The notes under the pieces are model-generated. The model was not told where the DNA came from, did no database searches, and saw only the letters and a program-made list of their open reading frames with translations. From NCBI GenBank assembly GCA_014534425.1, contig JACVRN010000006.1:24741-88740 (forward strand): a DNA stretch of 64,000 nucleotides, read 5' to 3'. The position numbers and the translations under genes are program-made. How positions within the stretch are numbered: position 1 is the stretch's first letter; every line of letters begins with the position of its first letter. Positions 46,982 through 63,974 of the stretch are shown here, in pieces. The stretch is from Pyrinomonadaceae bacterium (GTDB lineage Bacteria; Acidobacteriota; Blastocatellia; Pyrinomonadales; Pyrinomonadaceae).

Positions 46982-48319
46982 TCAATAAACCTGCAAGTCA
47001 GGGTTGGATTGAATGGTAAGTTCGGGTGGCGCGGGGCGCTCGCGCTTCAGTTTTTTACGGAGACGACGCTCGCGCCCCAGTAGAAGCGGCATGGTGTACT
47101 TTGCCATTCGCATCTGTCGCAGCGCTTTGATGGGGTCTACAAGATGAGTGTTTGGCAGCTTCGCGCCCGAAGCTTTCATCACTAAACCTATGGGAAGCTC
47201 CATCTGGTTCTGCAACTCTATCATTTTGGCTATCAGCTTTGAGCCGGGCGTCAGGAGCGGCCCTATGCCGTAGCGCGTCTGCCGCGTGCCTATCACGTAA
47301 AGGTGCTTGTACTCTGGCAACACGCAGCTTCCGTAGAGCATAGCCAGATTGTCGTTCTTGACCGTCACCATTCCTTCGGGTAGGAAGGGGAAGCTGACGT
47401 AAAAGCCAGTGGCGCAGACGACTGCGTCGAACTCGCTGCTCGTGCCGTCAACGAAGTGAACCCTGTGGCCTTCAAAGCGCGCAACGTCGGGCCGAGGCTT
47501 GATGCGACCGTGCTTAAGGTAGTGCAGGACTTCCGTGCTGATGGTCGGATGATGCTCGAAGATTTTATGATCCGGGCGCGGCAGGCCGTAATCTTCATAA
47601 CGCCCCACGACCAGTCGCACTAGAACGCGCAGTATCAGGCGCTGAACCGAGACGGGAAGATAAAGGACGGGAGATTCGACGATGGGTTTGCCGAGGAGCG
47701 TCTTGGGCATGAACCAGTAGCCGCGCCTGAGGCTCAAGTGAGCTTCAGTACTGACGCGCGCCGCTTCCGACACGACATCGCAGGCGGAGTTGCCGCCGCC
47801 TATGACAAGCACGCGCTTATCCGCCAACTGCTCTGGCCCCTTGTAATCCTTCGAATGCATCAACTCGCCCGTGAACTCGCCGTCGTAATGGGGGAACCTC
47901 TTGTGCCAGTGATGGCCGTTGCAGACGAGCACGCCCTTATACACGCGCCGCTCGCCGCTTGAAAGCTCCACGTCCCAAAGCTCGTCCTCGCGCGGGCGCA
48001 CCATTGTGACTTTGCTGTTGAACTCTATCTTCGGATAAAGATTGAAGTGCTTTGCGTAAGCGCGCATGTAATCGAGTATCTGCTGCGCGCTCGGAAAGTC
48101 CGGGTAATCCGCAGGCATTGGATAGTCCGTGAACTCCGTTGTCTTGCGCGAGGAGATGATGTGAACGGTTCTGTAGACGCCGTGATACCAGTTGCCGCCG
48201 ACATCTGCGTCGGCCTCTACCTGCTCGTAGGCTATCCGAGCTTCGGTCAGCGCTTTGGCATGTGCCAGCCCGCAAGGGCCTGCGCCGATTATCAGCATCG
48301 CATCGCGTCTGTCCTGCAT
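46982..48319 (-). CDS. Flavin-containing monooxygenase
   Basis: GAGPCGLAHA and VIGGGNSACDV Rossmann motifs; FTGELMHSKDY matches FxGxxxHxxxY. Confidence 0.9.
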   Translation of the reverse strand: MQDRRDAMLIIGAGPCGLAHAKALTEARIAYEQVEADADVGGNWYHGVYRTVHIISSRKTTEFTDYPMPADYPDFPSAQQILDYMRAYAKHFNLYPKIEFNSKVTMVRPREDELWDVELSSGERRVYKGVLVCNGHHWHKRFPHYDGEFTGELMHSKDYKGPEQLADKRVLVIGGGNSACDVVSEAARVSTEAHLSLRRGYWFMPKTLLGKPIVESPVLYLPVSVQRLILRVLVRLVVGRYEDYGLPRPDHKIFEHHPTISTEVLHYLKHGRIKPRPDVARFEGHRVHFVDGTSSEFDAVVCATGFYVSFPFLPEGMVTVKNDNLAMLYGSCVLPEYKHLYVIGTRQTRYGIGPLLTPGSKLIAKMIELQNQMELPIGLVMKASGAKLPNTHLVDPIKALRQMRMAKYTMPLLLGRERRLRKKLKRERPAPPELTIQSNPDLQVY

Positions 48320-48364
48320 CTTTCGCGCTCCTCTTAAATGATGTAATAGCACGTTAATTTCCAC

Positions 48365-48410
48365 TTTACAAAACTTTACATTCGGTTTGCACAAACTTTA
48401 CCGAACTTTC
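48365..48410 (-). promoter_or_regulatory. CpxR-box-like direct repeats
   Basis: TTTAC-AAAAC-TTTAC (48365-48379; GTAAA-N5-GTAAA on minus strand) and TTTAC-CGAAC-TTTC (48397-48410), at 10-11 bp phasing. Confidence 0.65.
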
Positions 48411-48499
48411 GAGCGCTCGTGCGTCTAAGCTAATCAAGAAGGAGCCTAAGAGGGCACTGGAAATTCTAGAATCTTAAAAATAAGAAGGGGAGAAGAGTG

Positions 48500-49030
48500 A
48501 TGAGATTAACCGGAAGAACGAAGGTCGGACTGGTTGTCACGCTGATTAGTGCGCTTCTGATGATGGCCGCAGTCGCAGGCTTTGCACAGAATGGGCCGCA
48601 GGAAGGCCCTCCGGGTGGGCCGGGCGGCCCGCGCGGTGAAAGAGGCCCTCGCGGCCCCAGAGGCCCTGGCGGCCCCATCCCGTTCCTGCGCGACCTTAAC
48701 CTGACGGACGCTCAGAAGGCGCAGGTCAAGCAGATCGTAGACAACTTCGAGGCCAGCACCAAAGAGTTGCGCGAGAAGATGCGCGGGCTTCGCGGCCCTG
48801 AGGGCGATGCGCTGAGCGGAACCTTTGACGAGGCGGCGGTGCGCTCCGCAGCGCAGGCACGCGCGGCTGTGCAGGTAGAGTTGGAAGTAGCTCATGCGCG
48901 CATGCTCTCGCAGGTCTACAACGTGCTGACGGCTGAGCAGAAGGCGCAGCTTGCAGAACGGCGACAGCAGTTCGAGCAGCGACGACGCGAAGGCCCTGGC
49001 GAGCGCGGCGGAAGACCGGAAGAGAATTAA
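48500..49030 (+). CDS. Spy/CpxP-like periplasmic protein with collagen-like Gly-X-Y tract
   Basis: Signal peptide; RDLNLTDAQKAQVKQIV and VLTAEQKAQLAERRQQ (LTxxQ motifs). Confidence 0.82.
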   Translation: MRLTGRTKVGLVVTLISALLMMAAVAGFAQNGPQEGPPGGPGGPRGERGPRGPRGPGGPIPFLRDLNLTDAQKAQVKQIVDNFEASTKELREKMRGLRGPEGDALSGTFDEAAVRSAAQARAAVQVELEVAHARMLSQVYNVLTAEQKAQLAERRQQFEQRRREGPGERGGRPEEN

Positions 49031-49139: not shown

Positions 49140-49772
49140 ATGGAACACGTAGAAACCTTTCCCTCATATTCGGAGGCGGCGTGTGAAAGTGAAGCGGCGT
49201 CGACTGCCGCTACGGATTACGATCTGGCTCAGAGCGCATCCGTTGGCGACATGGACGCTTTCGAGCATCTCTACCTGAAATATAACCGGCGCGTGTTTAG
49301 CCTCTGCCTGCGAATGCTGCAATCGCACGCAGAGGCCGAAGACATGATGCACGAGATTTTCATAACCCTCTTTGGAAAGATAGGCGGCTTTCGCGGAGAG
49401 TCAGCGTTTGCGACCTGGTTGCATCGTCTGACGGTCAATCATGTGCTGATGCACTTTCGCAAAAGTAGAGTCAGGCGAGAGCGCATCACAGACGACGGCG
49501 AAACTCCCCTGGAGATTGTAGAGGGAACCGCGAACCCTAATCGCATGGCCCTGCTCGACCGCATCACTCTGGATTCCACCATAGCGCAACTTCCGCCAGG
49601 CTACCGTGTCGTCTTCGTCCTTCACGAAATAGAAGGACACGAGCATCACGAGATTGCGGAAATCCTTGGCTGCTCCATAGGCACATCCAAATCGCAACTT
49701 CACAAGGCGCGCATGAAGCTCAGACGATTACTGCGCTCCAAAGAGCAAGAGAAACAACCCTCTAATCAATAA
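49140..49772 (+). CDS. RNA polymerase sigma factor, sigma-70/ECF family
   Basis: [66 protein letters not shown]-terminal sigma4 [24 protein letters not shown]. Confidence 0.94.
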
Positions 49773-60563: not shown

Positions 60564-61262
60564 TTAGGCCACGAACTTGTAGCCGTGGCCCCTGACGGTC
60601 AGAAAGTGTCTTGGGTTCTTCACGTCGTCTTCAAGCTTCTGACGCAGCAGCCCCACATGAACGTCAACAGTGCGCGTCAAGATTGCGGTCTCGTAGCCCC
60701 AAACCTGTCTTAACAACTGCTGGCGTGAAAGAGTCGCGCCGCGCTGCTCTATGAAATAACGCAGGAGTTGAAACTCGCGCGCCGATAGCTCTATGCGCGT
60801 GTCGCCGCGCCTGACTTCCGTGCTGCGAAAATCCACATGCACGGAGCCGAAGCTGTATGTCTCTGACGGCGCATCCGCGAGAGTGCTTTCGGGCTGCCTG
60901 CGGCGAAGGATGGCTTCAAGACGCGCGAGCAGTTCAAGCGGCTCGAAGGGTTTCGTCAGGTAATCGTCCGCGCCGAGTTTTAGTCCGAGGACTTTGTCTA
61001 TGACCTGCCCGCGCGCTGTGAGCATGAGAACGGGAGTGTTGACGCCGCGCTGCCTGAGGTCTCGGCACACGTCGAAGCCGCTCTTGCCCGGCAGCATGAC
61101 ATCCAGAATGATAAGGTCAAAAGCGTCAGGCGCGGAAGCCCGCTCCAATCCTTCCAGTCCGTCCGAGACCGCTTCCACCTGATAACCTTCGGCGCTCAGC
61201 AAATCCGTCAGCGCCATCACCAGTCCGGGGTCGTCTTCTACAAGTAATATCTTATCCGTCAT
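60564..61262 (-). CDS. OmpR/PhoB-family response regulator
   Basis: LVEDDPGLV, LIILDVMLPGKSGFDVC, KPFEPLELLARL; winged-helix C-terminus RQQLLRQVWGYETAILTRTVDVHVGLLRQKLE. Confidence 0.96.
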   Translation of the reverse strand: MTDKILLVEDDPGLVMALTDLLSAEGYQVEAVSDGLEGLERASAPDAFDLIILDVMLPGKSGFDVCRDLRQRGVNTPVLMLTARGQVIDKVLGLKLGADDYLTKPFEPLELLARLEAILRRRQPESTLADAPSETYSFGSVHVDFRSTEVRRGDTRIELSAREFQLLRYFIEQRGATLSRQQLLRQVWGYETAILTRTVDVHVGLLRQKLEDDVKNPRHFLTVRGHGYKFVA

Positions 61263-61267
61263 CTTAG

Positions 61268-63292
61268 TTAAGCGTCTGAAATATTCTTTGAAGTTTCAAT
61301 CGCGGGCAGATGCAGCGTGAAGACAGTGCCTTCTTTGGCGGAAGATTTTACCGTCACGCTTCCGTGTTGGGCGCGCATGTGTCGGTCTACCAAGCAGAGG
61401 CCGAGGCCGGAGCCGTGGATTGTGGAGGACGAGAAGCCCCCGCCCCTGTAGAAAGGCTCAAAGATGTGCGGCAGGTCTGACTGAGCTATACCCGGGCCGT
61501 GGTCTGCGACCCTTATCTGCACCTCCCTGCCTTTCCTGGTTTGAGCGCTCGTCGCAGTGACCTTGAGCCACTTGCCCGTCGCGCCATACTTCAAAGCGTT
61601 CTCAAGCAGGTTCTCCACGGCGCTCTCAAGCGCTTGCGCGTCGGCTAGAACCTGTGGCAGATTGTCTTCCACATTCTTCTCCACAGACCACCCGCCTTCT
61701 TCAAAAGCCGCTCTGTAATCATCAAACGCGCCGTCTATGATTTCGCGCACGTCCACTGGGCGAAGCTCGTAAAGCTTGTGGCCGGATTGAATGCCCGCGA
61801 AGCTCAGCATGCGCTCGATTTGATTTATGAGACGACGCGCCTCCTTCTGAATCACGAGGCCGTACTTTTCAACGCGCGCCGGGTCTTGAATCATCCCCTT
61901 TGACAGATTGTAGCTCGTGGATTGAATTACCGTGAGTGGCGTTCGCAACTCGTGCGAGACGCCCGCCACGAATTCCATCTGCTGTTCGGCCAATGCACGC
62001 GCGCGTCTTGCGGCAAGCGCAAGCATCACTGTGCTGCCCGCAAGCAGTAGCAGGATGCCGAAGCTCAGCGCAAGGTTTCGGCGGCGCGACTGGTCTATCA
62101 GAGCATAGGGCGAGCCTGACTTGCTTTTCAAAACCAGCCGCCAGGAATCCGGGTCATAGTTCTCGGCCTTGGCCTGAAGATTTCCGGGCGGCGGTCTTCT
62201 GGCACCTGCGAAGGGCGCCGGGGGCGGCGGCCCTTCGGGCGGAGGCGGTCGCATATCTGCGGGCGGCGGGCCGGGCTGTCGCTGCTGCTGTTCCGCTCCC
62301 TGCGGCGGTGGAGGTGGAGGCGGCGGCGGCCCGTGCGGCGGACGCCCAGGCTGTAGATGCGGGCTGAAGATAACTATCTCCGCGTCACTGTTGCGAATTA
62401 AATCCTCGCCCGCGCGAGCGTCCGACTTGTAGATGAATCTGGCGGGACGCCCCGTGACAATTGCTAAACTGTAATCATTCAGAGGCTCGTGCCCGAAGTG
62501 GCGCTCGATTAGCTCCGGCAGCAGATAGCTCTCCATGTAGCTCAAATCGAACTCAAGAAAACACCAGCCCTTCAATTGAGGGACGCGCACGAGGCCATCG
62601 GGCGGCGCGGGCCTTAGCTGCTGAAGCAACAGCCTGGGGTCTGTGCCGAAGGGAGGCATGCGCCCTTGCGGCGCGTTCTCCTGCGGCGCGTCGTTCGCAG
62701 ACGGAGTTGGCGCGTCGGGCTGAGGCGGTGGTGGCGGCTCACGGTTGACGACGAGTGGAAAGACCAGCACGGGTCTTTCTGCTGCGACTGCCAGAGCAAA
62801 GCCGTTCGGGAAAAGCGGCGGCTCGCCTCCTGGCATTCGCAGACGGTTTTCCAGAATCGTGCGGAACAGCTTCAGCGATTCGGGCCAGGACTCTTCCGTG
62901 AACTGCTTGTCGGTTGAGCGCAGGCGCTTGAAGGGCACGCCATCTTTGTTCTCGACGGCGAAGCTGACGGAGCTTAACATCTGCGGTCGCTCTGCCGTGG
63001 AGCGCCATTGCAGGAACAGATTCGAGAGGTAAGGCTCGAAGGCCGTGTCTGCGGGAACCGTCGGCGAAGGTCTGAAGTAAGGAAGCGGGTAATGAATCCT
63101 CTCTGCGAAATCGTCGCTGAAGTTTCGTATAGCAGCCTCAACGTATTCCCTCTGCTGGCGGCGATCTGCTTCGCTCGCGCGATTAATCCAGCGATACTGA
63201 AGAACGGCGGCCACGCACATCACTAGCATCAAAGCTATGCAGACAATCAACAGCCAGCCGGATTTGTTCGCGCGCGTTCCCTTCATCATCAT
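61268..63292 (-). CDS. Membrane sensor histidine kinase with proline-rich extracytoplasmic domain
   Basis: Two TM segments; FVAGVSHELRTPLTVIQS; ENLLENALKYG; VADHGPGIAQSDLPHIFEPFYRGG. Confidence 0.95.
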   Translation of the reverse strand: MMMKGTRANKSGWLLIVCIALMLVMCVAAVLQYRWINRASEADRRQQREYVEAAIRNFSDDFAERIHYPLPYFRPSPTVPADTAFEPYLSNLFLQWRSTAERPQMLSSVSFAVENKDGVPFKRLRSTDKQFTEESWPESLKLFRTILENRLRMPGGEPPLFPNGFALAVAAERPVLVFPLVVNREPPPPPQPDAPTPSANDAPQENAPQGRMPPFGTDPRLLLQQLRPAPPDGLVRVPQLKGWCFLEFDLSYMESYLLPELIERHFGHEPLNDYSLAIVTGRPARFIYKSDARAGEDLIRNSDAEIVIFSPHLQPGRPPHGPPPPPPPPPQGAEQQQRQPGPPPADMRPPPPEGPPPPAPFAGARRPPPGNLQAKAENYDPDSWRLVLKSKSGSPYALIDQSRRRNLALSFGILLLLAGSTVMLALAARRARALAEQQMEFVAGVSHELRTPLTVIQSTSYNLSKGMIQDPARVEKYGLVIQKEARRLINQIERMLSFAGIQSGHKLYELRPVDVREIIDGAFDDYRAAFEEGGWSVEKNVEDNLPQVLADAQALESAVENLLENALKYGATGKWLKVTATSAQTRKGREVQIRVADHGPGIAQSDLPHIFEPFYRGGGFSSSTIHGSGLGLCLVDRHMRAQHGSVTVKSSAKEGTVFTLHLPAIETSKNISDA

Positions 63293-63340: not shown

Positions 63341-63386
63341 TTTACCTTCTCTTTACAAACCCACGCTCTCTTTACCGAAGCTTTAC
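63341..63386 (-). promoter_or_regulatory. CpxR-box-like direct repeats in histidine kinase/Spy divergent intergenic region
   Basis: TTTAC-N6-TTTAC at 63341-63356 and 63371-63386 (GTAAA-N6-GTAAA on the minus strand). Confidence 0.7.
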
Positions 63387-63449: not shown

Positions 63450-63974
63450 ATGAACAAGCGTGTAGCAATCATAGGCATAGTTGCCGTGCTCGTCTGCGGC
63501 GCAATCTTTGCGACGGCACAAAGCGGCACAGGCCCGCGCGCGCAGCAACCGCCCAGAGGCATAGAGCCGCCGCCTCCACCTCCACCGCCCTTCGGCCTCC
63601 CGCACCTGGACAGGCTGGCGCGAGACCTGAACCTGACGGAAGCACAGCAGGCTGAGATTAAATCGCTGCTGGACGCCGCGCACACAACGCTCGACGCTCT
63701 GATGAAGAAGATGGACGCGGAGCGCAGGCAACTAGATACGGCCACGGCTGGAGGCCAGTTCGACGAAGCACAGGTGCGCGCCCTAGCCACACAACAGTCG
63801 CAGACGTTTGCGGAACTGATAGTCGAGCATAAAAGGCTCGAAGCCAAACTCTACAGCCTGCTGACCCAGGAGCAACGCAACCGCTTCGACCAGCTACGAC
63901 AACGCAGGCGGCAACCTCCGCCGCCCCCGCCTCCACCACCGCCGCCCGACGACGACGGGCCGAACGAGAGATGA
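63450..63974 (+). CDS. Spy/CpxP-like periplasmic protein with polyproline ends
   Basis: Signal peptide; RDLNLTEAQQAEIKSLL and LLTQEQRNRFDQLRQ (LTxxQ-like); PPPPPPPP and PPPPPPPPPPP tracts. Confidence 0.82.
   Translation: MNKRVAIIGIVAVLVCGAIFATAQSGTGPRAQQPPRGIEPPPPPPPPFGLPHLDRLARDLNLTEAQQAEIKSLLDAAHTTLDALMKKMDAERRQLDTATAGGQFDEAQVRALATQQSQTFAELIVEHKRLEAKLYSLLTQEQRNRFDQLRQRRRQPPPPPPPPPPPDDDGPNER

Follow-up and report, generated by a model that had tools for sequence, protein, structure and literature searches.

Results

The focal locus and its repeat array

The window, i.e., the whole 64-kb stretch of DNA that was analyzed, lies on an 88.7-kb contig and includes a gene for an LTxxQ (Spy/CpxP-like) protein preceded by a regular array of short direct repeats. 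The following features are found at this focal locus:

46982-48320, minus strand: flavin-binding monooxygenase gene (Pfam FMO-like, 171 bits)
48365-48401, plus strand: putative four-box direct-repeat operator with boxes TTTAC 48365-48369, TTTAC 48375-48379, TTTGC 48386-48390 and TTTAC 48397-48401 (GTAAA on the minus strand); 17 sites from relatives keep the same columns
48407-48411, plus strand: weak fifth half-box TTTCG, unconserved in the ungapped alignment with relatives
48421-48428, plus strand: probable -10 region GCGTCTAA, aligned without gaps to GCGTATAA of relatives, which is equally far from the last box
48500-49030, plus strand: LTxxQ gene, 176 aa, start ATG at 48500 (GTG at 48497 also possible)
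49140-49772, plus strand: ECF sigma factor gene (Pfam Sigma70_r2/r4_2), downstream of the focal LTxxQ gene

The array is seated in the 179-bp gap between the minus-strand monooxygenase gene and the plus-strand LTxxQ gene, and its boxes start at 48365, 48375, 48386 and 48397 (spacing 10/11/11). A preliminary description of this DNA had reported an exact GTAAA-N5-GTAAA, a weaker intermediate repeat and a degenerate pair, all on a 10-11 bp helical phase, and each of these elements is recovered: the exact pair TTTACAAAACTTTAC at 48365-48379 has no second copy in the window (expected number 0.02), TTTGC 48386-48390 is the intermediate repeat, and the degenerate pair consists of TTTAC 48397-48401 and TTTCG 48407-48411. 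The half-box TTTCG was considered as a part of the operator and ruled out, as the alignment with relatives is without conservation at that position; this half-box probably lies outside the operator. No sigma-70 promoter-like site was found in the focal promoter region, which fits the expectation for an activator-dependent (OmpR/PhoB-type) promoter, and a regulator of this type bound at the last box, just upstream of the -35 position, would be suitably placed for activation.

The product of the downstream gene matches Pfam LTXXQ with 64 bits (cut-off 24.3) and Metal_resist with 42 bits, in agreement with the reported position of the box upstream of a Spy/CpxP-like gene, and has, by inspection only, an N-terminal signal-peptide-like stretch. 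Its NCBIfam scores for Spy (57.6 bits, cut-off 174) and CpxP (40-45 bits; 40.3 vs. 160) are below the equivalog cut-offs, by which it is neither Spy nor CpxP proper. The order of an LTxxQ gene followed by an ECF sigma factor gene (the latter by inspection) also occurs in the relative G105 (L219), beside cpxRA-like genes.

The rarity of the array was assessed by pattern searches over the entire assembly (5.43 Mb, completeness 89.8%) with reversed patterns as controls. The GTAAA-N5-GTAAA pair occurs at 5 sites vs. 2 for the backwards pattern; a single pair is mildly rare and, alone, weak evidence. Single pairs were rejected as a marker, since many of the other matches fall within genes or intergenic runs of the CCATTTAC type. 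The four-box lattice TTKAC-N5-TTTAC-N6-TTRAC-N6-TTTAC, allowing up to 2 mismatches, has exactly one match in the genome, the focal array, and none for the reversed control. Here it is the lattice that carries weight. A three-box pattern matched 5 times and its control not once; the matches fall at 4 places, namely the focal array, 63341-63386 of the window, and C305:28676-28730 and C305:100469-100514 on another contig. Two of the five LTxxQ genes of this genome have an array; none was found at the other three loci by a chain scan restricted to 10-11 bp steps and blind to a 19-bp step. Motif scans here also pick up intergenic CCATTTACTATTTAC-type repeat runs (L004, L006, L007, L020) that imitate GTAAA pairs.

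Counterparts of the focal array in relatives

The focal protein has its nearest homologues in G105, G109 and G106 (58-69% identity), where they are encoded divergently from a response regulator with the recognition helix DRSIDMHIS. The two relatives' regulators that were scanned have CpxR as the best NCBIfam model (217 and 244 bits, cut-off 341) and the one partner kinase scanned has CpxA (318 and 281 bits, cut-offs 800 and 486; next model 168), i.e., these are the best models for each, although all scores are below the equivalog cut-offs. A CpxR-like regulator is present in at least 80 of 119 same-family Acidobacteriota genomes and in at least 54 of 297 genomes sampled across the phylum, where the best 23 or fewer (family) and the best 9 or fewer (phylum) candidates per genome were scored; absence counts are therefore upper bounds outside the genome under study, which was scored in full.

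Of 84 CpxR-like genes, at least 53 are divergent from a neighboring LTxxQ gene, most within 550 bp, and the focal lattice or its two-box core is frequent in the intergenic regions between them. Upstream of CpxR-like genes, 22 of 29 regions contain the TTNAC/TTTAC pair, compared with 0.15 on average after shuffling and with 3 of 501 other windows; the 29 regions come from related genomes and are hence mutually non-independent. The full four-box pattern is missing in several relatives that have CpxR-like genes. An ungapped alignment of 18 sites (17 of them from relatives) reads TTgAC-AAAAC-TTTAC-N6-TTGAC-ngACTC-TTTAC and, at a constant distance beyond it, GCGTaTAA. These sites were picked for their lattice match, so that the independent signal is the AAAAC spacer and the -10 element. 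The focal promoter fits the consensus, with GCGTCTAA in the columns of the GCGTATAA element; its third box is TTTGC, vs. TTGAC or TTAAC in relatives.

Further observations were made around these loci. Many of the intergenic regions have a second box on the regulator side, a conserved GTAAAGAAGTGTCA located 42-170 bp from the start of the CpxR-like regulator gene (L189-L204), which is probably that gene's own operator. Focal-type arrays near genes for secreted proteins, VWA-like by inspection, mark possible further targets (L226 in G106, L228 in G043). A second group of LTxxQ genes, including one of this genome on contig C261 (L021) as well as L127, L129 and L132-L140, is without the array, and several relatives in this group share a TGTAACC-like upstream motif, perhaps that of another regulator.

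Among the loci read from other families and classes of the phylum, an LTxxQ gene stands beside the regulator with the lattice at L249 and L253 (without the last box at L253), and several other loci read outside the family have neither an LTxxQ neighbor nor the lattice. At L258 and L262, a focal-type lattice precedes an efflux-pump membrane-fusion-like gene (by inspection) with a CpxR-like regulator adjoining, a layout that recalls the control of efflux pumps by CpxR in Pseudomonas.

A second array class at the two-component system of the window

The preliminary description called the focal locus unlinked to a two-component system (TCS) of the window, which holds only loosely, as the two are separated by 12-15 kb of one contig. 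The TCS locus comprises:

60564-61262, minus strand: OmpR-family response regulator gene, closest to RegX3/MtrA/RpaB, CpxR model lower
61268-63292, minus strand: histidine kinase gene, best NCBIfam models PnpS and PhoR, not CpxA-like
63341-63386, plus strand: array in the gap that separates the kinase gene from the second LTxxQ gene, lattice 11/19/11 (TTTAC at 63341, 63352, 63371 and 63382)
63450-63974, plus strand: second LTxxQ gene, divergent from the TCS (Pfam LTXXQ, 53.5 bits)

The regulator of this TCS was rejected as a CpxR, since RegX3/MtrA/RpaB models score above CpxR. The box said to be common to both LTxxQ promoters is so in its TTTAC core, the half-site of the TCS promoter being present at the focal one, and not in its lattice (10/11/11 at the focal promoter vs. 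11/19/11). Without mismatch, the 11/19/11 lattice occurs at two places of the genome only, the TCS array and an unlinked cupredoxin-domain gene; the latter (C305:100469-100514; L018, L110) is a perfect copy upstream of a 412-aa protein (Pfam Cupredoxin_1). At the TCS locus of G103 (L030, an Acidobacteria gp4 genome), the next gene past the LTxxQ gene is a homologue of the cupredoxin gene. This arrangement supports the TCS and cupredoxin arrays as one regulon, apart from the focal gene, and copper or another metal may be what the window TCS responds to. The remaining three-box match, C305:28676-28730 (approximately 6680-6735 of L111), is a TTTAC array of several boxes that precedes a second kinase/regulator pair, and similar arrays are found in G103, G105 and G037.

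Orthologs of the window kinase with 47-57% identity (L030-L032, L043) have GTAAA-N6-GTAAA-N14-GTAAA-N6-GTAAA about 100 bp upstream, and the relatives L033-L035 keep one GTAAA pair; an LTxxQ gene adjoins the kinase ortholog in L030 and not in L031, L032 and L043. Among relatives, the focal class thus adjoins the CpxR-like regulator and the TCS class adjoins window-kinase orthologs, with both operator classes present together in G085, G095 and G113. In a gene tree of LTxxQ proteins (mostly unresolved, with four proteins left out), the array-less group, including the C261 gene, separates, the focal gene is not firmly placed, and the 63450 type groups, with weak resolution, with genes beside CpxR in G085, G088 and G001, which belong to other genera. 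The latter grouping suggests that the modules exchange regulators, and such an exchange between the two systems appears plausible.

CpxRA in the genome under study

In this assembly, from which about 10% of the genome is missing, no close CpxR was found among all candidates, each of which was scored (highest identity 41%), and no close CpxA either (highest identity 33%, over the catalytic part only). The monooxygenase gene occupies the side where relatives carry cpxRA-like genes, and a cpxR-side box was not seen at 48321-48364. Because the place of the relatives' cpxRA is assembled here and holds another gene, a loss is more likely than an assembly gap, although completeness is 89.8%, and cpxRA appears to have been lost with the operator kept. 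In G118, a 100% complete genome for which the cut-off used gave no CpxR-like match, only remnants of the array are left at the corresponding promoter. The near-intact focal array, as judged from this one comparison, suggests that something may still read the focal site.

Discussion

The comparative analysis of the focal array points to a CpxR-type operator that survives from a divergent cpxRA/cpxP-like locus and serves an activator-dependent LTxxQ promoter, a reading to which we assign a probability of about 0.78. According to the proposed mechanism, a dimeric response regulator of the OmpR/PhoB family, ancestrally CpxR-like, would bind the direct repeats on one helix face just upstream of the -10 element and recruit RNA polymerase to the promoter of a periplasmic LTxxQ protein, the trigger being a kinase that would sense envelope damage or metal stress. 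The focal site would represent the surviving half of a conserved divergent locus that has lost cpxRA together with the box on that side and has kept the LTxxQ-side operator. Several features expected of a CpxR-regulated cpxP-type promoter are observed: GTAAA-(N)4-8-GTAAA upstream of the gene (48365-48379), a target of the LTxxQ family that is periplasmic as far as its signal peptide can be recognized by inspection, and, in relatives, a location next to cpxR with the same operator between the two genes. On the other side of the balance are the failure to find the cognate regulator in this genome (best identity 41%, and 33% for the kinase over its catalytic part), the deviating third box (TTTGC), the incomplete four-box pattern in several relatives with CpxR-like genes and the equivalog scores below cut-off. 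Moreover, the TTTAC half-site is used by other OmpR-family regulators, so that box identity alone names no regulator.

The preliminary description proposed a single regulon, in which the window TCS regulator (60564-61262) would directly control both LTxxQ genes. The shared box core and gene family stand, as does the intact state of the focal array in an assembly without a CpxR-like gene; its retention, compared with the mere remnants in G118, suggests a reader, and the grouping of 63450-type LTxxQ genes with CpxR-side genes (G085, G088, G001) indicates exchange between the systems. Nevertheless, the operators belong to different classes (10/11/11 vs. 11/19/11) that are tied to different regulators in relatives, which makes one regulon with the TCS not the simplest reading: a search of this genome with the TCS lattice returns the TCS promoter and that of the cupredoxin gene but not the focal one, the focal lattice elsewhere adjoins CpxR-like regulators, and the window regulator is of a different subfamily. 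Direct control by the TCS is accordingly a possibility that we regard with some doubt. A single regulon might possibly also have arisen through takeover by a remaining regulator: after loss of CpxRA, the OmpR-family regulator of the window or that of C305 would have adopted the LTxxQ operator. This replacement, which we likewise entertain only tentatively, would merge two stress regulons that relatives keep apart.

A cpxRA-like pair controlling the focal gene from afar could reside in the unassembled tenth of the genome, where a single gap would hide both genes, adjacent as they are in relatives; the completeness of 89.8% and the intact array are in line with it. We consider such a pair rather unlikely, as in relatives it usually lies beside the LTxxQ gene, in a place that is assembled and occupied here within an 88.7-kb contig, and as up to 19 of 69 good genomes of the family are also without a match. 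Also unlikely is a relic, i.e., an array whose boxes are no longer read after a recent loss of the regulator: the degraded third box, the cpxR-side box not seen at 48321-48364 and the erosion in G118, which illustrates the fate of such sites, are in line with it, but the promoter retains three undamaged boxes, the AAAAC spacer and the GCGTCTAA element, all exactly spaced. Chance or low-complexity sequence, a source of GTAAA pairs in intergenic runs such as CCATTTACTATTTAC, is highly improbable for the focal array and can be regarded as refuted by the single lattice match in the genome (control 0) and by its alignment at the homologous place in relatives.

Comparison with known systems

Cpx is known mainly from Proteobacteria, and in E. 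coli cpxP and cpxRA are divergently arranged. Our literature search, poor in subscription journals, found no paper on Cpx regulation in Acidobacteriota. The published CpxR consensus GTAAA-(N)4-8-GTAAA is present on the P. aeruginosa cpxP promoter, which is activated by CpxR approximately 100-fold (PMC5063474). Compared with the CpxR box at the cpxP promoters of E. coli and P. aeruginosa, the focal site likewise has GTAAA-N5-GTAAA upstream of a gene for an LTxxQ periplasmic protein, but its array is longer and regular (four boxes, 10/11/11), is found in a different phylum and lacks a detected regulator in the same assembly. The HLR1 element of cyanobacterial RpaB, (G/T)TTACA(T/A)(T/A)-N2-repeat, is also fitted by the focal TTTACAAA-AC-TTTACATT (PMC9241938), and the window TCS regulator, the one OmpR-type regulator of this genome that was scored against the RpaB model, has its best match there, below the cut-off (213.9 bits vs. 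330); the focal lattice, however, differs from that at this regulator's own promoter. The 11/19/11 arrays of the TCS class share the TTTAC core with the focal array; they adjoin a TCS and, both in this genome and in G103, an LTxxQ gene as well. They differ from the focal array in spacing, in the subfamily of the neighboring regulator and in targets (kinase, LTxxQ and cupredoxin genes for the TCS class).

Overall, this comparison indicates a Cpx-like locus in Acidobacteriota, in which the regulator and LTxxQ genes are divergent and the operator code can be read. One half-site arranged in two lattices, each of which goes with a different TCS, offers a direct test of paralogous-regulator insulation, and the genome under study provides a natural case of an operator that survives with its regulator apparently missing.
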